Position numbers and translations under genes: made by a program. The notes below the pieces were generated by a model, which did no database searches, was not told the DNA's origin, and was given only the letters and a program-made list of their open reading frames with translations. A stretch of DNA of 51,465 bases from a virus, in IMG/VR virus record IMGVR_UViG_3300035010_000021, positions 1 through 51,465 of that record; one strand, written 5' to 3'. Numbering within the stretch: position 1 is the first letter of the stretch; each line of letters begins with the position of its first letter. Of this stretch, positions 4,004 to 28,984 are shown piece after piece.

Positions 4004-4398
4004 CACGGTACTTCTACACCGACTCACTCGCCGCCGCGTGGATGGCAAAGCACTTCGGGATGGTCTTCCGGGAGAAACCACCATTGGACGATGGCTGGGT
4101 TGACCCGCTGATGAATGATCGGGGCCGCTACATCATCTGCCCCGACAGCATGCACTTGCTGGAACCGAGACCAGGAGACAAGGTGTCCTACTCTTTCGGA
4201 GTGGGGCAGCACGCAGGGGAGGCGTGGGATGAAGTGAAAGGCATCATCGCCTCGAATGACGAAGGCTATCCCTACACGGGAAATGGAGAACCTTACGTGC
4301 TCGTGGATGACTGTGACGAGTTTCCGCTGAGCCGCCTGAAGGAGATATTCCAGCGCGACGGCAAGCCCTTCATGTGGCCCGAGAGCGAGGTCGCGTGA
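4000..4398 (+). CDS. Hypothetical phage protein (132 aa)
   Basis: A 132-residue acidic protein. It contains RYIICPDSMHLLEPRPGD (residues 42-60), a pattern found in small phage proteins of unknown role, and a C-terminal acidic stretch YVLVDDCDEFPLSRLKEI that resembles a short binding motif. No signal peptide or membrane span. ATG start overlapping the preceding stop; TGA overlaps the following GTG. Confidence 0.7.
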   Translation: MTRYFYTDSLAAAWMAKHFGMVFREKPPLDDGWVDPLMNDRGRYIICPDSMHLLEPRPGDKVSYSFGVGQHAGEAWDEVKGIIASNDEGYPYTGNGEPYVLVDDCDEFPLSRLKEIFQRDGKPFMWPESEVA

Positions 4399-4676
4399 CG
4401 CTGGCGTTCCTCTCCCTCGGTCACAGCCCGCTGTCCGGAAAAACCGCGGTGGATCAGGCGGTTGCCTTCAAACGGCAACTCCGTTCCGTCCATCCCTTCC
4501 CCGACGGCGCCTACGTCTGCATCAGCCCCAACCCCGAGACGCACCACTGCGAAGCACGGGCGGTGTACGAGCGGACCATCCCCGGTGCGAAGGAGTGGGT
4601 GGAGAGAGCTGCCGAACTCGCGCCGGGTATCTGGGATTCGCTCTCGGCCAGGCGGAGGGAGCGGGAAAGGGTATGA
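4395..4676 (+). CDS. Hypothetical protein (93 aa)
   Basis: A 93-residue protein with a GTG start overlapping the previous TGA. First half mixed strand and helix, second half helical and ending in a run of Arg/Glu (RRRERERV). That basic tail is encoded by the sequence GGAGCGGGAAAGGGT that precedes the next ATG, so the C-terminus doubles as the ribosome binding site. The same device is used at the end of 4673-4852. Function unknown. Confidence 0.6.
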   Translation: MTLAFLSLGHSPLSGKTAVDQAVAFKRQLRSVHPFPDGAYVCISPNPETHHCEARAVYERTIPGAKEWVERAAELAPGIWDSLSARRRERERV

Positions 4677-4852
4677 CTCAACGGAAGCGGACTATGCGCT
4701 GCTCATTCTGCGGGGCTGGAGAAGAGGACAGTGAGGTCGAGGTGCTCTTTCAAGGTGCCTGGGGAGGACTGATCTGCAACGAGTGCGTCGCACAGTGCGT
4801 TGAGGAGATGGCGAGGCGTCGTAGGGCGCAGAAGGAGCGTGAAAGGGTATGA
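4673..4852 (+). CDS. Stand-alone ClpX-type zinc-binding domain protein (copy 1)
   Basis: A 59-residue protein that is almost nothing but a C4 zinc finger of the ClpX N-terminal type: RCSFCGAGEEDSEVEV ... GLICNECVAQCVEEM. The Cys-x2-Cys pairs and the CSFCG start match the domain with which ClpX unfoldase dimerises and binds adaptors. There is no AAA+ module. A second copy is at 13747-13923. Established: in full-length ClpX this domain selects substrates. Inference: a free copy could block or redirect host ClpXP. The start overlaps the previous stop. Confidence 0.85.
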   Translation: MTQRKRTMRCSFCGAGEEDSEVEVLFQGAWGGLICNECVAQCVEEMARRRRAQKERERV

Positions 4853-4942
4853 GGGCGTCTCGGCCTGCGGCCGCCGGTCCCTGCGCGACTCCGCTACGCT
4901 CGGTGCTTCGCACGCCTTCGGCTCGCTGCGGCACCTGACGCG
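4853..4942. repeat. Structured spacer repeat, copy B (GCGTC...GACGC ends)
   Basis: About 90 bases starting GGGCGTC and ending CACCTGACGCG, directly after the ClpX-type zinc-finger gene. Inside are CGGCC-TGC-GGCCG and further short inverted repeats. It shares GACTCCGCTACGCTCGGT and ACGCCTTCGGCTC with the copy at 7977-8064, and its ends with the copy at 14050-14137. The end sequences GCGTC and GACGC are complementary, so the whole can fold. A 13-codon frame (4943-4984) follows before the next gene and carries its ribosome binding site. Confidence 0.7.
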
Positions 4943-4985
4943 ATGAAACAACCAGCAGCCCAGGACGGGCGGAAAGAGAGGTGAG

Positions 4986-11593: not shown

Positions 11594-11625
11594 AACGAAG
11601 GAGCAAGGAGGCAGTACGATCATGA
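11512..11625 (+). CDS. Possible small protein or frameshifted tail of the mini-HTH gene
   Basis: A 37-codon frame from one of two adjacent GTG codons (11509 or 11512) after an AGGGGGA purine run: SAPDEPEAKRWAEAAGD then AVAVWEQVKRRSKEAV, a convincing amphipathic helix. It is in the -1 frame relative to the mini-HTH gene it overlaps. It ends over the ATG of the J-domain gene, whose AAGGAGG site it contains. Either a separate peptide or the true C-terminus of copy 3 after a shift. Confidence 0.4.
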   Translation: MSAPDEPEAKRWAEAAGDEAVAVWEQVKRRSKEAVRS

Positions 11626-12185
11626 CCGAAGCGTATCCACTACAGTGGCCACAGGGCAAACCGCGAAGCTCCCATCCGAAGCGGAGCAACTTCCGAACGG
11701 CGCACGGCGCGGCGTGCCAGTTCGTCCTCGGAGAGATCCGACGACTTGGCGGCACGTTGCCAGTCATCTCGACGAACATCCCCCTCCGCAAAGACGGTCT
11801 GCCCTACGCCACCTACCGGTCGCCCGACGACCGAGGCGTCGCCGTGTACTTCAGCTACCGCGGTCAGCAGATGTGCTTCGCCTGCGACAAGTGGGACATC
11901 GTCCACGACAACATCTATGCCGTCGGGAAGACGATCGAGGCTCTCCGGGGGATCGAGCGATGGGGCACCGGGGAGATGGTCCAACAGGCGTTCACCGGGT
12001 TCGTCGCCCTTCCCAGCAACTCCGCGTGGGACGCCCTGGGTGTCAAGCCAGGGGCATCCCGAGAGGAGGTCGAACGGGCGTTTCGGGAGAAGGCGAGGGT
12101 GATGCACCCGGATGTCGGCGGCTCAACAGAGGCGATGGCCCGGTTGAACGAGGCTCGCGCGGCCGCGTTGAGGAGTGCAGCGTGA
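11622..12185 (+). CDS. J-domain protein with plasmid/phage-type N-terminal region
   Basis: A 187-residue protein. Residues 1-135 are a domain with the pattern MCFACDKWDIVHDNIYAVG, KTIEALRGIERWGTGEM, common on mobile elements. Residues 138-187 are a J-domain: WDALGVKPGASREEVERAF then MHPDVGG, with the HPD triad that stimulates DnaK. Only helices I-III are present, without the Gly/Phe or zinc regions of DnaJ. It probably recruits host DnaK to a phage or plasmid complex, as J-proteins do in replication and assembly. Possible partners are unknown. Its TGA overlaps a GTG at 12182. Confidence 0.85.
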   Translation: MTEAYPLQWPQGKPRSSHPKRSNFRTAHGAACQFVLGEIRRLGGTLPVISTNIPLRKDGLPYATYRSPDDRGVAVYFSYRGQQMCFACDKWDIVHDNIYAVGKTIEALRGIERWGTGEMVQQAFTGFVALPSNSAWDALGVKPGASREEVERAFREKARVMHPDVGGSTEAMARLNEARAAALRSAA

Positions 12186-12669: not shown

Positions 12670-13124
12670 CGAGCAAGTTGATCGAGGAGGTGGAGAAGCT
12701 GAGACCGAAGCCCGGCGATACGGGCTATCTGGCAGGAAGCGCTCGCGTTGCCGACGTGGTCGACCAGGTCATTGCCCTCATCCGCCAGCACGGGGAGCAG
12801 AGTGCGGTCGAAGCCAGGAGCTCCGAACGGGAAGCGGCCCACGCGGCTGCAGAAGCAATCATTGCGAGCGAAGGCACCAAGTACCCGATGCAACGATTCG
12901 TCGCGGAGAAGTACGCCCAGGTCGCCCTCGCCGCCGATCCCCTCCGCCGTCGTCTTGGCCCTGTCGCCGTGCAGGCGATCGTGGATGGGAAGGCAACGGT
13001 GGTCCACTCTTTCCAGCCAGGCAGATGGATGCCCTACAAAATCCAGTACGTAGACGAGAGTGGATCGGATTGGGAGATCGACTCGGGAGAGTGTCGCCTC
13101 GACATTCTCCGGGAGGAGCGATGA
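12666..13124 (+). CDS. Hypothetical protein with KPGDTG N-terminal motif
   Basis: A 152-residue protein. Residues 1-45 (LIEEVEKLRPKPGDTGYLAG, ARVADVVDQVIALIRQH) are shared with the 54-residue protein at 29667-29831. The central part is helical and Ala/Glu-rich and the last 45 residues are beta-rich (KIQYVDESGSDWEIDSG). No family recognised. GTG start overlapping the methyltransferase stop; its TGA overlaps the next ATG after a GGGAGGAG site. Confidence 0.65.
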   Translation: MTSKLIEEVEKLRPKPGDTGYLAGSARVADVVDQVIALIRQHGEQSAVEARSSEREAAHAAAEAIIASEGTKYPMQRFVAEKYAQVALAADPLRRRLGPVAVQAIVDGKATVVHSFQPGRWMPYKIQYVDESGSDWEIDSGECRLDILREER

Positions 13125-13288
13125 GGCTGATCATGCTACAACGCCAGCCGGACGGGTCGTTCATCGACTGGGGGCGTCACGCGACCGTGGACGGAGCTCG
13201 GGGCGGGGGTGGGGCCAGGTGGTACGTGGGCGAGGCTGCGGAGGTGTTGCGGCTGGTGCTGCTGTACTCGGAAAGGGCAGGGCGATGA
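13121..13288 (+). CDS. Small hypothetical protein (55 aa)
   Basis: A 55-residue protein: RLIMLQRQPDGSFIDWGRH, a Gly-rich turn (GARGGGGARWYVG) and a helix (EVLRLVLLYSERAG). No family known to me. Strong GGGAGGAG site overlapping the end of the preceding gene; stop overlaps the next ATG. Confidence 0.55.
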   Translation: MRLIMLQRQPDGSFIDWGRHATVDGARGGGGARWYVGEAAEVLRLVLLYSERAGR

Positions 13289-13392
13289 CCCGCGCCACCG
13301 TCCAACTCGGCCTGGCCATGTCAGCCCTCTGGGTGACCTCGTCCCTGCCGATGCTGACCCTGGCAATGGCGGCGGAGGAGCGGGGACGATGA
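13285..13392 (+). CDS. Tiny membrane peptide (copy 1 of 3)
   Basis: A 35-residue peptide TRATVQLGLAMSALWVTSSL followed by PMLTLAMAAEERGR: a short basic start, one hydrophobic span and an acidic-basic end. It is clearly related to the peptide at 13646-13750 (NRATIQFVLATSVFWVASRL) and more distantly to 13920-14042. Expected to sit in the inner membrane. Too short for an enzyme; may be a regulator, toxin-like peptide or superinfection factor. Coupled by ATGA. Confidence 0.6.
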   Translation: MTRATVQLGLAMSALWVTSSLPMLTLAMAAEERGR

Positions 13393-13649
13393 CGTTAGCG
13401 GAGATAGAGGAACTTCTGGCGAATCACGATCGGCTCAGGCAGAAGTACGGTGGAACAAGTGAACCGAATGAGGAGATCGTTGCCACGATGCTCATGCCCC
13501 TGGATGAAGAGCCCCACATCCAGACTCCGTTCGGACGTTGCCTGCTCTTGGAATGGCGAGAGCGCCGCGGTCAGCTTGAGGCGATTTACGCTTTGACGCG
13601 CGGGCAGCTCGTGGAGACCATCGCCCGCATCAAGCAGGGGCGGCCATGA
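13389..13649 (+). CDS. Helical hypothetical protein (86 aa)
   Basis: An 86-residue mostly helical protein: LAEIEELLANHDRLRQKYGG, then a Met/Pro linker and RCLLLEWRERRGQLEAIYAL, TRGQLVETIARIKQG. The helices are long enough for a coiled-coil pair. It sits between two copies of the tiny membrane peptide, so these may be partner genes. ATG overlaps the stop of the first peptide; stop overlaps the start of the second. Confidence 0.6.
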   Translation: MTLAEIEELLANHDRLRQKYGGTSEPNEEIVATMLMPLDEEPHIQTPFGRCLLLEWRERRGQLEAIYALTRGQLVETIARIKQGRP

Positions 13650-13750
13650 ACCGCGCAACCATCCAGTTCGTCCTAGCCACATCCGTCTTCTGGGTGGCCT
13701 CGCGCCTGCCGATGCTGGCGGAAGTGCAATCGAAGGGGGTAACCAGATGA
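13646..13750 (+). CDS. Tiny membrane peptide (copy 2 of 3)
   Basis: A 34-residue peptide NRATIQFVLATSVFWVASRL with PML after the span, closely matching copy 1 at 13285. The hydrophobic stretch covers residues 6-18. The start follows CAGGGGCGGCC, a modest binding site. Its stop overlaps the ATG of the second ClpX-type zinc finger gene. Confidence 0.6.
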   Translation: MNRATIQFVLATSVFWVASRLPMLAEVQSKGVTR

Positions 13751-13923
13751 GTCTACGGCACTGTTCATTCTGTGGCCTGAGCGAGGACGAGGTCAACTTC
13801 CTGGTGGCCTCGCGGCCGTCCTACATCTGCGACGCCTGCGTGGAGCAGTGCGTTAAAGTCCTCGCAAAGGCCCAACGGCAAGCCAGGCAGTTCGAGGCTG
13901 CCAGTAAACAGGCTCCCTCGTGA
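13747..13923 (+). CDS. Stand-alone ClpX-type zinc-binding domain protein (copy 2)
   Basis: A 58-residue protein: HCSFCGLSEDEVNFLVASRP, SYICDACVEQCVKVLAKA. The spacing of CSFCG, the EV-x-x-L-(V/I)-A-x-P strand and YICDxCVxxC are almost the textbook N-terminal domain of ClpX, closer than copy 1 at 4673. The rest is a short Gln/Ala-rich helix, with no ATPase part. It may compete with ClpX for dimerisation or adaptors such as SspB-like proteins. It lies between two tiny membrane peptide genes, coupled to both. Confidence 0.87.
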   Translation: MSLRHCSFCGLSEDEVNFLVASRPSYICDACVEQCVKVLAKAQRQARQFEAASKQAPS

Positions 13924-14042
13924 ACCGCACCCGGATCGCCTTCGCCCGCTGTGCCGTGTCCCTTTGTCTGGGGGGATCGGCTTTGTATGCGGTGGTGGGG
14001 CTGCTCAGGGAGTTGAGTCAGGAGTACCAGCGGGGTCGGTGA
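13920..14042 (+). CDS. Tiny membrane peptide (copy 3 of 3)
   Basis: A 40-residue peptide from a GTG that overlaps the preceding stop: NRTRIAFARCAVSLCLGGSA, LYAVVGLLRELSQEYQ. The start matches the NRAT(I/V)Q pattern of copies 1 and 2, but the span is more diverged and holds two Cys. It ends the gene group just before the structured spacer at 14050-14137. Confidence 0.5.
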   Translation: MNRTRIAFARCAVSLCLGGSALYAVVGLLRELSQEYQRGR

Positions 14043-14049
14043 AGGGGTT

Positions 14050-14137
14050 GGGCGTCCCGGCCTTCGGCCGTCGGTCCCTCCGCCGCTCGCTGTTCGCTCG
14101 GTCGCTGCGCGACTGCACGGCTCCAGCACCTGACGCA
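14050..14137. repeat. Structured spacer repeat, copy E
   Basis: 88 bases starting GGGCGTCCC and ending CACCTGACGCA, with CGGCC-TTC-GGCCG and GGTCGCTGCGCGACTG inverted repeats. It follows the third membrane peptide gene and is itself followed by TTTTCTTC, so it could act as a terminator for the upstream chain. The next promoter (14146-14174) begins nine bases after it. Confidence 0.7.
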
Positions 14138-14226: not shown

Positions 14227-14988
14227 ATGAAGGAGATACTCAATCGCTGGACCGGCAAGGTCATGCTCAATGGCTTGTCGCTTGAGCTGGTGCTGGAGAA
14301 CCACAAGAAATGGCTGCGCGGAGAAGAGGGCGGGAGCCGTGCCGACCTGAGCGATGCCGACCTGAGCGATGCCGACCTGCGCGGTGCCGACCTGCGCGGT
14401 GCCGTCCTGAGCGATGCCGACCTGAGCGATGCCGTCCTGAGCAGTGCCGTCCTGAGCGATGCCGTCCTGAGCAGTGCCGACCTGCGCGGTGCCGTCCTGC
14501 GCGATGCCGTCCTGAGCCGTGCCGACCTGCGCGATGCCGACCTGCGCGGTACCGACCTGCGCGGTGCCGCCCTGCGCGATGCCGTCCTGAGCCGTGCCGT
14601 CCTGAGCCGTGCCGACCTGCGCGGTGCCGTCCTGCGCGATGCCGACCTGAGCGATGCCGTCCTGAGCAGTGCCGACCTGCGCGGTGTACCCTCAATCCCG
14701 AACATCCACCAAACCGTCTACTCCGCCGCCTCCCAACCTGGGGCGCTGAGCATGAGTAGTTGGCATTCTTGCGGAACCACGCATTGCCGTGCCGGCTGGG
14801 TCGTCGCCCTGGCAGGCGAGGGCGGGGCCGCGATGGAGTGGTGTCTCGGCACCCCCGCCGCAGCCGCCCTCATTTACCTCAAGAGCGACCCGAAGATCGA
14901 GCGGATCCCCAACTTCTACGCCAGCAACGAGGACGCGCTGGCGGACATGAAGCGGCTGGCGGATGCCGAGGCGGCGACCGCGGCATGA
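14227..14988 (+). CDS. Pentapeptide-repeat protein
   Basis: A 253-residue protein. Residues 1-36 are helical; residues 37-151 are 23 consecutive pentapeptides of the A(D/V)L(S/R)x type, which should form a right-handed quadrilateral beta helix of nearly six turns. Residues 152-253 are a separate domain with SWHSCGTTHCRAGWVVALAG and IPNFYASNEDALADM, often found with such repeats. Known relatives (Qnr, MfpA) mimic DNA and bind gyrase, but many members have no known target. The AAGGAGG binding site lies 6 bases before the ATG. The last gene of the chain (mini-HTH) overlaps its stop. Confidence 0.88.
   Translation: MKEILNRWTGKVMLNGLSLELVLENHKKWLRGEEGGSRADLSDADLSDADLRGADLRGAVLSDADLSDAVLSSAVLSDAVLSSADLRGAVLRDAVLSRADLRDADLRGTDLRGAALRDAVLSRAVLSRADLRGAVLRDADLSDAVLSSADLRGVPSIPNIHQTVYSAASQPGALSMSSWHSCGTTHCRAGWVVALAGEGGAAMEWCLGTPAAAALIYLKSDPKIERIPNFYASNEDALADMKRLADAEAATAA
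14335..14679. repeat. 23 tandem 15-bp units inside the pentapeptide gene
   Basis: Each unit reads close to GCCGACCTGAGCGAT or its variants GCCGTCCTGCGCGGT. The units are so alike in DNA, not only in protein, that recent expansion by slippage or unequal exchange is likely. Because of the repeat, several frames on both strands stay open across the region, but those frames are artefacts. Confidence 0.9.
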
Positions 14989-15164: not shown

Positions 15165-15492
15165 CCGACCCCACTACCCCGTCACGCGGATGAAGCACCA
15201 TTCGCTGGTTCCACGTCAGCTGCTGCCCGATCTTCTCCAGCACGTCTTCCTTGCCCGTAACCCGCACCAGGAACGACCCGTCGTTCACCGTGTCGAACTT
15301 GAACCGCAACATCCCGTCGTCCAGCTGCACCTGGCCATCGATGGCCCCGTACAGAATGCCCCGGCGGGTGCCGTCGTCGAACCGGACCCACACCCCGGCG
15401 TAGGCCCCCTTGTTGCTGGCCATGCCGCACCGGTCGGACTCTTCCGTCTCGGCTTCAGGCGTTGCCGCCCCACGGATCTCACGCGCGTTCAA
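15136..15492 (-). CDS. Small protein downstream of the relaxase
   Basis: A 118-residue protein whose start is a TTG at 15492, chosen because AGGAGG lies 7 bases upstream and no ATG or GTG fits as well; an internal ATG at 15426 is the alternative. The N-terminus is acidic and flexible; residues 40-118 are beta-rich (AYAGVWVRFDDGTRRGI, DGQVQLDDGMLRFKFDTV, MVLHPRDGVVGSVTVEKV), fitting a small barrel. It overlaps the relaxase end by 14 bases and is therefore coupled to it. Possible relaxosome accessory protein, by position only. Confidence 0.65.
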   Translation of the reverse strand: MNAREIRGAATPEAETEESDRCGMASNKGAYAGVWVRFDDGTRRGILYGAIDGQVQLDDGMLRFKFDTVNDGSFLVRVTGKEDVLEKIGQQLTWNQRMVLHPRDGVVGSVTVEKVEAS

Positions 15493-18325
15493 GACTGACC
15501 TCCTGTTGCTTCCCCATGACGGCATCGCGGGCGATACTGAGGCCTTCTCGCAGCCGAGCCAAGTGTTTTCTCAATCGGGATCGCACTTTCTTCGCGCGAA
15601 TACGGACGAGGTCAACCGCATGGGGCCGGTCGTCCTGCTTGTGGATCGCCTGCCGCGTCGCATCCCGGTCATCCACGTACAGCACAGCCTTCTGCCGTCC
15701 CCGGCTGGCAGAGACGTAGAGCTGGGATGCGGACACGGCGGGGAGGTTCTGGCTGGTCATGTCCACCAGCACGACGTCCACAGTCCGGCCCTGCGAAGCG
15801 TGGCTGGTCGAGACGTAGCCGTGAGCAAGATGGCCGACGCCCTCAGGAAGGATTCGTTCCGCTCCCGAAACGGTCCGCACCTTGATCCCGTCGTCGGTGA
15901 AGCCGGAGACGGTGAGCATCGTGCCGTTGTCGATCCGCTTGCCGGAAACGTCTTTCACGCCCGCGGTGGTGCGGATCCGGTCACCGGGGGCGAGGGCGAG
16001 CGTGTCCTGACGGTACGCCCCGAAGCGGGTGAGCAGAACATCCGGCTCGGGGTGTTTCCGAGCTTCCCGGAGCTGAGCCTCGGTGTAGTGCAGAGGCACC
16101 AGTTGCTTGAACTGCCGGTCCTCGCCGAGTTTGCCGTCGGCGCGAAGCCGGTCCCGAATCGCCGCGTTCAGCTGGTCGCCGGCGGCGTGGGTGGGGCTGA
16201 TGACTAGGGCGGACTTGCCCTCGGCCAGCGCGGTCAGGTAGTCGTCCACCAATTCGAGGTGTCCCTCGGAATGGTCCTTCACCCACCCCAGCGCGTCGAG
16301 CCGGTCGAAACCCTTCGCCACGTTCCCGGCCGCCAGCGCCTCAACCGCCTTGCGGTACTCCCCGGCCTGCCGCTTGATCTCCGCCACCTCGATCACCGGG
16401 ATGCCCTTGTCCTCCAGGAGGGAAAGGACGTCACCGCGGACGGGGCTCTTATGCTGCCGGCGGTCTCCAAGCAGGAGGATGCGGGCGTTCAGTTGGTCGG
16501 CTAACTTGGTGAGCCTGGCGACGTCCTTCATCCCTGCCATTCCGGCCTCGTCCAGAACGATCAGGCCACTTCGAACGCTGTCCTGCATTTCTTTCGAACC
16601 GAGGAACTTCGCCAGCGTCTCGGCGTGGTCGAAGCCCGACTCCCTCAACTCGCCGCGCGAAGCCGTGACGGACGGGGCCAGGATCACCCAGGGGTCACGG
16701 ACGTGGGGCATGACCGCCCGGAGCATGGTGGACTTCCCGGACCCAGCGACCCCGCGGACGACGATCAGCCGGTCGGGCGAGGTGAGGGCGTGGCGGGCGG
16801 CAAGCTGCTGGGAGGGCGAGAGAACCATTTTCCTGGCGTCAGGAACATGGTTCCCCTGCGGGGATGACGAGAGCACGATCATCTTGTCGGCGCCGACAAA
16901 ATGATCCGGTGGCGCGCCAGGGGCGTTGTGTTCTGGTTTCGGCGAGTTCTGGGACACAACGGGTTTTGTGTTCTGGTTTCGGTCAACAACGACCGAATCA
17001 GCCGCTTGCGGGGAGGGAGAAAGAGTGATAGTGTCCGGTTTGGTTGCGTCGGCGTGGAAAGCAGACACGCTCACGGGAGCACCCCTAACCCAGTAGTCGC
17101 GGGGGTCTTGTTGCCGCATAGCCGGGGTAGCGTCCGGCACGCGACCAATACCCAACGGCACGAACCGCCCCCGCCCTTCCCGGGCGAAGTCGAGCAGAGC
17201 CTTCTCCTCGGCCAGCACCCCCTTCGTGGTGATGACCGTCCGCTCCCCCTGTTCCCGTCGGATCAGGCCGGGGCGGGATAGCTCGCGGGCGACGGCTTCG
17301 GGCGAGACGGCCGTCGGGTCGAACCGGAGAGCCTCGGTCATCACCTCGCGCTGATCCACCACCGAGCGGCGTTCCGTCAGGTGACTGACTGCGTAGGTGA
17401 GCGCCTCCGCTGACCGGTCTTCACGCGCCAGGGGCAGGTCGGCTCCTTCGACCGTGTCCCGCACCGCCCGGAGTTCGTCGTTCGTCAGCCGCCCGGCCCA
17501 GTGGACCAGCAGGGACTCCCACGACTGCCCTTCCTTCTTCGCCTCCCGTGACGTCGCCCCCAGCTTCGCCTTCGTCTCCGGCCGGGTGATCCCCAACTGA
17601 TCGGCCAGATTGTCGATCTGCGCGGTCCGTCGGCTAAACTCCTCCCGCACCCGCGCCGGGATGCCGACCACCTCGAAGTCGCCCGCCTTGGCCTTCAGCT
17701 CATACCCGAGGCCCTGTAGCTCCGCCGCCAGCCGAGAACGGAACACCGCCTGGAAGTACGGCCCGTCCTTCTTCAGGTCGCCGAACTGCCCCGCCTTCCA
17801 CTGCCCCTCCTGGTCGTCCCAGGTGAGCGAGAACGCGACCGCGTGGATGTGCAGCTGGGGGTCGGGGTAGCCGCCGATCGGACGGGACGTGTTGTGGACG
17901 AAGTCGCACCAGACCATGTTCCCCGTCGGCCGGTCGAAGTCCGCCCGCCGCTTCCGCACCCGCGTTTTCATCTCCCGCTCGACCTCGCCCATCGTCGCCG
18001 CCACCGCCACCCGGAACGCGTCGGCGATCCGCCCGTCGCCACCGACTGCGTGCAGGACGGACACGGACTTCGGGACTGAGAAAGTGAAGTCGTACCCGAC
18101 TCGGCGCTCGCCCTTCGCCGCCGTCAGCTTCTGCCCCCGGACGGGGTGGAGGTTGTCGCACAGGTAGTCGAACGCCCGCTTCTCGACCCGGCCGGACAGG
18201 CTGAGCATGGGGGCGGCCTGGCCGTGCCAGTACGCCTCCAGCTCCTGGCCGTCGATCATGTAGTCGGCGACCGAGAAGTAGGCTTTGCAGGCGGCGGAGT
18301 TAGCGATCTCGTTTATGCGGAGCAC
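15479..18325 (-). CDS. MobF-family (TrwC-like) relaxase-helicase
   Basis: A 948-residue protein from a GTG at 18325, chosen because TrwC-type proteins begin right there (LRINEIANSAACKAYF). N-terminal relaxase domain: candidate catalytic Tyr16 and Tyr22, the strand DFTFSVPKSVSV (79-90), and the metal-binding His triad H144, H159, H161 (FVHNTSR, DPQLHIHA). C-terminal superfamily 1 helicase: Walker A GVAGSGKST (525-533), Walker B LIVLDEAG (D592 E593), and later motifs with HASQGRT near the end. It would nick one strand at an oriT, stay bound through tyrosine and unwind DNA for transfer or rolling-circle replication. No T4SS or coupling protein is in the window, so it may use a helper. Confidence 0.93.
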   Translation of the reverse strand: MLRINEIANSAACKAYFSVADYMIDGQELEAYWHGQAAPMLSLSGRVEKRAFDYLCDNLHPVRGQKLTAAKGERRVGYDFTFSVPKSVSVLHAVGGDGRIADAFRVAVAATMGEVEREMKTRVRKRRADFDRPTGNMVWCDFVHNTSRPIGGYPDPQLHIHAVAFSLTWDDQEGQWKAGQFGDLKKDGPYFQAVFRSRLAAELQGLGYELKAKAGDFEVVGIPARVREEFSRRTAQIDNLADQLGITRPETKAKLGATSREAKKEGQSWESLLVHWAGRLTNDELRAVRDTVEGADLPLAREDRSAEALTYAVSHLTERRSVVDQREVMTEALRFDPTAVSPEAVARELSRPGLIRREQGERTVITTKGVLAEEKALLDFAREGRGRFVPLGIGRVPDATPAMRQQDPRDYWVRGAPVSVSAFHADATKPDTITLSPSPQAADSVVVDRNQNTKPVVSQNSPKPEHNAPGAPPDHFVGADKMIVLSSSPQGNHVPDARKMVLSPSQQLAARHALTSPDRLIVVRGVAGSGKSTMLRAVMPHVRDPWVILAPSVTASRGELRESGFDHAETLAKFLGSKEMQDSVRSGLIVLDEAGMAGMKDVARLTKLADQLNARILLLGDRRQHKSPVRGDVLSLLEDKGIPVIEVAEIKRQAGEYRKAVEALAAGNVAKGFDRLDALGWVKDHSEGHLELVDDYLTALAEGKSALVISPTHAAGDQLNAAIRDRLRADGKLGEDRQFKQLVPLHYTEAQLREARKHPEPDVLLTRFGAYRQDTLALAPGDRIRTTAGVKDVSGKRIDNGTMLTVSGFTDDGIKVRTVSGAERILPEGVGHLAHGYVSTSHASQGRTVDVVLVDMTSQNLPAVSASQLYVSASRGRQKAVLYVDDRDATRQAIHKQDDRPHAVDLVRIRAKKVRSRLRKHLARLREGLSIARDAVMGKQQEVSLERA

Positions 18326-18657
18326 GGCGCCCCCGCAGTCCGCGAGCAGGTGGCTCCGCCCCCTCGCCTCCAAGCCCCTCGCGGCGCTCGCCCGGCGGCT
18401 CCGCTCCGGAAGCCAGACACCACCTGCGCGACGACTCGCACGGCTCGCCTGCTCCGGTAGCCGTCTGTTCCCTCCGCTCCGGGGCTTTCCGGCTCACCCC
18501 CGCGTTCGCCACGTGGCAGAAGGTCAGGACGGCTTCGCCCGCCCGACCTTCGAGAACGATTTGAGTCATTGAGCTCTGGCGGAAAGCGTGATACCCAGGA
18601 CGGGCCGGGAGTGAACGTCCCGGCCCGATACATCAACCTACGTGGAAAGGCAAGGTG
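18326..18657. other. Divergent spacer with oriT-like hairpin
   Basis: 332 bases between the leftward relaxase and the rightward methyltransferase. Bases 18330-18500 are a Pro/Arg-coding-like, GC-rich stretch related loosely to the structured spacers. Bases 18601-18627 are a perfect 10-bp inverted repeat, CGGGCCGGGA and TCCCGGCCCG with a 7-base loop. MobF relaxases recognise an inverted repeat next to their nick site and usually act close to their own gene, so this is a candidate oriT; it could also be an operator or attenuator. An 89-codon frame (18300-18569, minus) is judged unlikely to be real. Confidence 0.5.
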
Positions 18658-27818: not shown

Positions 27819-28277
27819 ATGCCCACCTATTCCGAACGATTACGCGACCCCCGCTGGCAGAAGAAGCGGCTGGAGATCATGCAACGGGACGGCTTCGCCT
27901 GCACACTCTGTCAAGACGAAAGAGCCACCCTCAACGTCCACCACTGCTACTACGAGCAGGACCGAGACCCGTGGGACTACCCCGACACGTCGCTCCTCAC
28001 CCTCTGCCAGCCGTGCCACGAGAAGGAGACCCACTTCCTCAAGGTCATGAAGCGCGGCCTGGCGATCGAGCTGGGCAAGCTCGGGGCCAGGAGCGTCCAC
28101 TACTACGAGCTGGCGATGGCCTTCGCCCGCCTCGACCCGAAGCGGCTGGACCAGGCGGTCTGGTTCGTCGGGTTCTTCCTGACCGACACCGACTTCCAGG
28201 GCAAGTTCTTTCGCGAACTCGACCTCGCCCGCCCCGCCGACGCGCAGGAGGTGCCGCCGTGCCCACCTACCGCGTGA
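27819..28277 (+). CDS. HNH endonuclease-like protein
   Basis: A 152-residue protein with the zinc-type HNH layout: DPRWQKKRLEIMQRDGFACT, CTLCQDERATLNVHHCYY, DTSLLTLCQPCHEKE. Catalytic His pair in VHHCYY, ligands CxxC and CxxCH. A helical C-terminal half follows (residues 80-150). Could be a homing or DNA-processing nuclease; it lies at the head of the replication genes with its own structured leader. The start at 27819 was taken because a strong CAGGAGG site lies 4 bases upstream. It overlaps the next gene by 19 bases. Confidence 0.85.
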   Translation: MPTYSERLRDPRWQKKRLEIMQRDGFACTLCQDERATLNVHHCYYEQDRDPWDYPDTSLLTLCQPCHEKETHFLKVMKRGLAIELGKLGARSVHYYELAMAFARLDPKRLDQAVWFVGFFLTDTDFQGKFFRELDLARPADAQEVPPCPPTA

Positions 28278-28984
28278 AGAACTGGGACAGGTTCCAGCAC
28301 TACAAGGACCGCACCCCACCCTGGATCCGGCTGCACCGCGGCCTGCTGGACGACTACGAGTTCCACTGCCTGCCGGACGCTAGCAGGGCGCTAGCGCCCT
28401 GCCTGTGGCTGCTCGCCAGCGAGAATCCGGACCCGTCCCGGGGGGAGATCGCGGCCGCCGACGAGAAGATCGCGTTCCGCCTGCGGATGCCCGTCCGGAA
28501 GTTCCAGGACGCCGTCAAGCCGCTGATCGAGCACGGCTTCTTCGAGATGGAGCGTGACGCTAGCGAGGTGCTAGCGGACGGTCCGCACGGCGCTACCCCA
28601 GAGGCAGAGACAGAGGCAGAGGGAGAAGTGCACACCCCGCGCGGGCGCAAGACCCGGATCGGACTTGAGGACCTGTCCGTCGATCACATCGCCGACTGGC
28701 TAGCCCGGAAGCGTGCCGAGGGGAAGTACCTCCGGCACGACGAGCACTTCGTGCTTGAGCAATTCAAGGACTACTGCACATCGAAAGGAAAGACCTATGT
28801 CGACTACATCGCTGCTTACCGCGGAGCCTTCGAGTGGGACCGCTGCCGGCCCCGCCCACAGCACCAACATCAGCTACGGCCCGGGAACGCCGCACTGGGC
28901 CAGGCCGCCCGCCCCGGCAGCAAGGCCGACCGAACTCGTGCCGCCATCGAGCAGGCCCTCCTCGACCTTGGCCACCAGCCTTGA
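28259..28984 (+). CDS. Phage replication protein with N-terminal winged helix
   Basis: A 241-residue protein from a GTG at 28259; GTG 28274 is an alternative. NWDRFQHYKDRTPPWIRLHR, GLLDDYEFHCLPDASRALAP and KIAFRLRMPVRKFQDAV are the start of the O-like replication-initiation family, in which a winged helix binds the phage origin. The middle is acidic and flexible, and a second domain follows (IADWLARKRAEGKY, HDEHFVLEQFKDYCTSKGK). The gene holds internal GACGCTAGC/GCTAGC repeats (28378-28400, 28557-28576). The last 188 bases also encode the start of the next gene in another frame. Confidence 0.75.
   Translation: MPTYRVKNWDRFQHYKDRTPPWIRLHRGLLDDYEFHCLPDASRALAPCLWLLASENPDPSRGEIAAADEKIAFRLRMPVRKFQDAVKPLIEHGFFEMERDASEVLADGPHGATPEAETEAEGEVHTPRGRKTRIGLEDLSVDHIADWLARKRAEGKYLRHDEHFVLEQFKDYCTSKGKTYVDYIAAYRGAFEWDRCRPRPQHQHQLRPGNAALGQAARPGSKADRTRAAIEQALLDLGHQP

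Follow-up and report, generated by a model that had tools for sequence, protein, structure and literature searches.

Two detached ClpX-type zinc-binding domains in a siphophage with a likely planctomycete host: candidate competitors of host ClpX

Results

The window analysed here, the whole 51,465 bp of an IMG/VR virus sequence, is a siphophage record whose terminase, portal, maturation protease and major capsid genes make up a head module of the HK97 type. On its plus strand, positions 4673-4852 encode a free ClpX-type C4 zinc-binding domain (ZBD) of 59 aa, MTQRKRTMRCSFCGAGEEDSEVEVLFQGAWGGLICNECVAQCVEEMARRRRAQKERERV, which we call copy 1 and which was recognised by PF06689, by alignment and by its predicted fold. 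A Shine-Dalgarno-like GGGAAAGGG (4663-4671, +) lies within the 3' end of the preceding gene, a 93-aa ORF without a family match (4395-4676, +) whose stop overlaps the copy 1 ATG (ATGA); the two genes likely form one operon. By codon statistics the copy 1 frame outscores the other two forward frames, and one reverse-strand frame scores about equally; because coding potential by itself is weak, the coding call rests on homology. GC3 is 0.65 in copy 1, 0.70-0.81 in the neighbouring accessory genes and 0.95 in the structural genes.

In the Pfam search, PF06689 (zf-C4_ClpX) was the sole match to copy 1 (E 3.7e-10), and its 40.0 bits against a curated gathering threshold of 27 exclude a chance match. 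The alignment to the NCBIfam clpX models is confined to the first ~50-55 of their ~415 positions, and since these models match over their first ~55 positions only and the protein is 59 aa long, copy 1 lacks the AAA+ module. Its cysteines form two CxxC knuckles (CSFC ... CNEC), and comparison with ClpX points to C10, C13, C35 and C38 (codons at 4700, 4709, 4775 and 4784) as the zinc ligands. An earlier note on this DNA had described a 59-residue ClpX C4 domain without an AAA+ part, and the PF06689 match, the ClpX profile and the predicted fold bear this out. It had also given CNECVAQC as a motif of the C4 domain; by comparison with ClpX this holds for the first two cysteines of the motif but not for the last, which is no zinc ligand and is absent from several homologues.

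The label "copy 1" in that note implied a second copy, and one is indeed found at positions 13747-13923 (+), where PF06689, PHROG matching and the predicted fold all identify a free ClpX-type C4 domain of 58 aa. At 55.4 bits (threshold 27), copy 2 is nearer to canonical ClpX than copy 1.

Three tiny ORFs with hydrophobic stretches flank copy 2 (13288-13392, 13649-13750 and 13920-14042). The second of these (33 aa, + strand) overlaps the copy 2 start and is a diverged duplicate of the first (79% over 76 nt). On the 3' side of each ZBD region lies a GC-rich stretch (4853-4945 and ~14050-14135) with the similar words GGCCTGCGGCC and GGCCTTCGGCC, after which both continue in Arg/Ser-type, CGCT-rich sequence. 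A 50-nt match (86%) to the stretch at 4853-4945 occurs in the prophage region of the planctomycete-class genome G214. These stretches may represent a mobile repeat unit.

Ten free viral domains, the two window copies among them, were combined into a profile and compared with solved structures; ClpX PDB chains matched with E values from 1e-14 to 2e-17, and the best match to any other family reached 0.047. AlphaFold2 models of the two copies, built on 10-row alignments, reached pLDDT values of 85.9 (copy 1) and 81.2 (copy 2). From its 10-row alignment, the copy 1 model found ClpX 9a5x as its top PDB match (E 0.017, probability 1.00) and also showed a weak resemblance to GATA-type fingers. The copy 2 model, likewise from 10 rows, agreed with crystal and NMR structures of the E. 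coli ZBD to an rmsd of 0.6-1.7 A, and matched 2ds5, 2ds6 and 2ds8 at E 0.003-0.01 (rmsd 0.7-1.2 A). Comparison of the predicted structures with the ClpX zinc domain had been set beforehand as a check, and both models resemble the ClpX ZBD, with ClpX as the best PDB match in each case. The identity of both copies as ClpX-type ZBDs is thus secure. They have in common with the N-terminal ZBD of ClpX (1OVX, 2DS5-2DS8) the fold, the four cysteine ligands and an invariant Phe, but differ from it in lacking the AAA+ module, in loop lengths and in some residues of the partner surface.

In the E. coli ZBD this surface includes a hydrophobic pocket, made up of F16 and I46, that is required for the effect of trigger factor and overlaps the site for lambda O, whose degradation by ClpXP requires the ZBD; SspB and RssB reportedly bind the same region (PMC7804408). 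A separate adaptor-docking loop confers specificity (PMC7647994). In our alignment, the F16-equivalent is Phe in both copies, and the I46-equivalent is Val in copy 2 and Glu in copy 1. The latter position is hydrophobic in 44/44 bacterial ClpX proteins and in 14/14 other free domains compared; of 68 further viral proteins, one has Ala there and the others have Ile, Leu, Val or Met. Judged from these residues, copy 2 would be a good candidate for a molecular sponge because the pocket is kept (F and V), and copy 1, having apparently lost part of it, probably has another or a narrowed partner. The adaptor-docking loop probably corresponds to the hairpin that joins the two knuckles, which are separated by 21 residues in copy 1 and 18 in copy 2, compared to 19 in 40/40 planctomycete ClpX proteins.

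A host among the Planctomycetota is likely, because related prophages sit in G214 (terminase 80% identical, collinear over the structural module) and in the Planctomycetaceae MAG G035 (terminase 64% identical). Of 149 planctomycete genomes sampled across the phylum, 138 had a PF06689 match, mostly in open frames of ClpX length, and each of the nine genomes with a related terminase (9/9) holds one such match in a ClpX-length frame. A phage-encoded competitor would therefore have a target, given that 138/149 of these genomes carry a ClpX-type ZBD. Within the window, the replication protein at 28259-28984 (+; phrog_26426, with a weak DnaD-like helicase-loader match) would be a candidate ClpXP substrate.

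The two copies are ~35% identical to each other, and each is ~33-34% identical to the ZBD of G214 ClpX. Recent capture of a host clpX is ruled out by this low identity and by the spacing of 21 and 18 residues against the 19 of all 40 planctomycete ClpX proteins. It is also unlikely that one copy arose from the other by recent duplication, since their spacing and their best PHROGs differ (phrog_5259, E 2.1e-9, for copy 1; phrog_12435, E 6.4e-9, for copy 2); for the same reasons they are probably separate acquisitions. The long spacing of copy 1 recurs in gp52 of Salmonella phage 118970_sal3 and in the viral locus L153. None of 33 viral records found via the terminase, many of them short fragments, contained a ZBD, and no free ZBD was found in G214, the closest genome, where the sole PF06689 match is the ClpX-length frame. 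On these 33 records and G214, a fixed module of this phage lineage is rejected, and both copies are accessory genes.

Genes of this kind are already catalogued. Stand-alone ClpX zinc fingers occur in PHROGs 12435, 5259, 20296 and 6797 (the label "protease" on phrog_12435 ill suits a 65-aa zinc finger), NCBI annotates plasmid and phage-plasmid genes with the product "ClpX C4-type zinc finger protein", and such proteins are encoded by the named phages D6 (orf93), P88 (gp19), BUCT566 (gp74), EM (gp107), Alize, MTATph1 and 118970_sal3 (gp52). Copies 1 and 2 are, like the proteins of PHROGs 5259 and 12435, small C4 zinc fingers without an AAA+ part, with the ZBD as the only recognised domain, and are ~35-60% identical to known phage members over the matched core. 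What sets the record apart is the planctomycete phage background, the presence of two copies (118970_sal3 likewise has two) and the Glu at the copy 1 pocket, which make copy 1 a divergent new member. The earlier note knew of no described phage system built on such a domain. This stands as far as function is concerned, as no functional study of a stand-alone ClpX zinc finger, or of a ClpX decoy encoded by a phage, emerged from the literature covered, mostly papers available without subscription; it fails for the genes themselves and, because such genes from many phages have already been clustered and annotated, the discovery value is below what the note implied.

Scanning IMG/VR with a degenerate DNA pattern yielded 27 stretches, and a 65-aa family of Pseudomonas phages accounts for 22 of them. 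This family is under purifying selection (dN/dS 0.17-0.27, ~20 records). Scans for relatives with single sequences and with two sequences were too narrow, and a wider scan with a 10-sequence profile gave 69 viral loci; among the 68 that could be parsed, 24 proteins fall below 160 aa, of which 15 are distinct, and the other 44 are longer and mostly ClpX-sized. Free ZBD genes are often found in early regions: in the Pseudomonas-type phages they lie downstream of a replication initiator and a DnaB-like helicase, and in L153 the gene adjoins a CI repressor. In other phages it lies near the terminase or integrase, and we found no constant neighbour, with terminase, integrase, repressor, replication and ParB-like genes all occurring alongside. 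In Klebsiella phage ST846-OXA48phi9.2, a ClpX-ZBD frame at 13122-13226, between CII and replication genes, is unannotated on its strand, the opposite strand being annotated as a hypothetical protein.

The domain also occurs joined to other parts. It is fused to an HTH-like C-terminus in L133, L151 and Streptomyces, is accompanied by N-terminal helical regions in D6, P88, L198 and L221, and is fused to a ParB-like protein in L159. In cyanobacteria, zf-C4_ClpX is an accessory domain of sigma-70 factors (PMC11119718), and we found a Tolypothrix sigma factor that ends in it at the C-terminus. ParB-like proteins are fused, adjacent or near to free ZBDs on four contigs (L159; L003, 4222-5049; L153, 395-1417; L174, 1179-2270); a functional link is possible, and no ParB-like gene was found in the 51,465-nt window.

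Discussion

The reading that we favour, at a probability of a little under 40%, is that the free ZBD competes with the ZBDs of host ClpX for adaptors or substrates and thereby alters degradation by ClpXP. Under this proposal the copies would be produced from an early or accessory operon as isolated ZBDs, and each would dimerise with itself, with host ClpX or with the other copy. It would then capture adaptors or substrates otherwise taken by host ClpX, with the result that certain proteins of phage or host might escape ClpXP, or be degraded differently, to the benefit of the phage. The isolated ClpX ZBD is known to fold alone, to dimerise and to recognise adaptors and substrates, lambda O included (PMC9035409, PMC7804408, PMC7647994), and it is these properties that would make a free copy a ready-made competitor. 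A parallel is offered by mycobacterial ClpC2, which is homologous to part of a Clp ATPase, stands on its own and acts as a sponge (PMC10030653); the likeness, a free-standing part of a Clp unfoldase serving as a molecular sponge, is a functional analogy only, as ClpC2 is an unrelated, antibiotic-binding domain encoded by a cellular gene.

A sponge is plausible given the ClpX ZBD identity, the presence of a host target, the frequent position of free ZBD genes in early regions and the purifying selection in the 65-aa family. Several observations weigh against it: the Glu at the predicted pocket position of copy 1 and loop lengths (21 and 18) off that of planctomycete ClpX (19), as read from the alignment; the lack of conservation of the copies in related phages and prophages; the location of the gene elsewhere near the terminase or integrase; and the fusions to sigma-70, HTH-like and ParB-like proteins, by which a link to ClpX is not required. 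If the proposal holds, copy 2 would be the better sponge candidate, and the partner of copy 1 may be narrowed or different.

These same fusions make a generic interaction module a strong rival. The ZBDs could be general treble-clef modules of ClpX ancestry that bind proteins or nucleic acids and act in phage regulation or assembly without ClpX, and we hold this to be a real if tentative possibility, well short of even odds. The sigma-70, HTH-like, helical and ParB-like contexts described above, the weak likeness of the copy 1 fold to GATA-type fingers, and a TraR/DksA-annotated zinc finger next to the ClpX zinc finger of BUCT566 are all consistent with it. On the other hand, the profile and fold matches are specific to ClpX, and among the free copies the pocket Phe never varies and the I46 position is nearly always hydrophobic, as would be expected if the ClpX partner surface were under selection.

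It is also conceivable, if unlikely, that host ClpX is itself the target of the protein, which would either form heterodimers with the ClpX ZBDs and so poison the ring or, as a phage adaptor, bridge new cargo to it. ClpX has been described as a trimer of ZBD dimers in which ZBD occupancy alters the output of ClpXP (PMC9035409, PMC7804408), and the additional N- or C-terminal domains of some homologues would fit a bridging adaptor; copies 1 and 2, however, have no extra domain for cargo, and the low identity of the copies to each other and to G214 ClpX makes a heterodimer uncertain. We regard it as improbable that the two genes currently do nothing and are accessory passengers, either decaying or selectively neutral. 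Their absence from related phages and prophages, the low GC3 of copy 1 compared to structural genes and its divergent pocket are in keeping with such a fate, but both frames are open with the four zinc ligands and start sites intact, nearby accessory genes are also lower in GC3, and purifying selection acts on homologous families elsewhere.

Phages and plasmids of Enterobacteria, Pseudomonas, Caulobacter, Moorella, Bradyrhizobium and planctomycetes repeatedly carry free ClpX ZBDs. If they are sponges, they would offer phages a general means to retune regulated proteolysis in the host (antitoxins, SOS proteins and replication initiators), and such natural ClpX competitors of 40 residues would be useful tools. 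A broader version, in which detached ClpX ZBDs widely serve phages as ClpXP sponges and this phage has a pair drawn from different subfamilies and specialised for different ClpX partners, is doubtful.

Other genes of the window deserve mention. The ORF at 11622-12185 (+; phrog_9210 match) has a C-terminal J (DnaJ) domain including HPD, with 39% aa identity in the G214 prophage region; together with the two ClpX ZBDs, it places detached parts of two host chaperone systems in one phage. The 253-aa ORF at 14227-14988 (+) holds a long pentapeptide-repeat-like run (ADLSDADLRGA type), in a region where other frames also hold long ORFs. At 15479-18373 (-), this siphophage encodes a 964-aa relaxase-helicase of the MobF/TrwC type, with a full-length counterpart near the G035 prophage terminase (41% aa) and a partial one in G214, which points to a phage-plasmid or to a phage that replicates by way of a relaxase.
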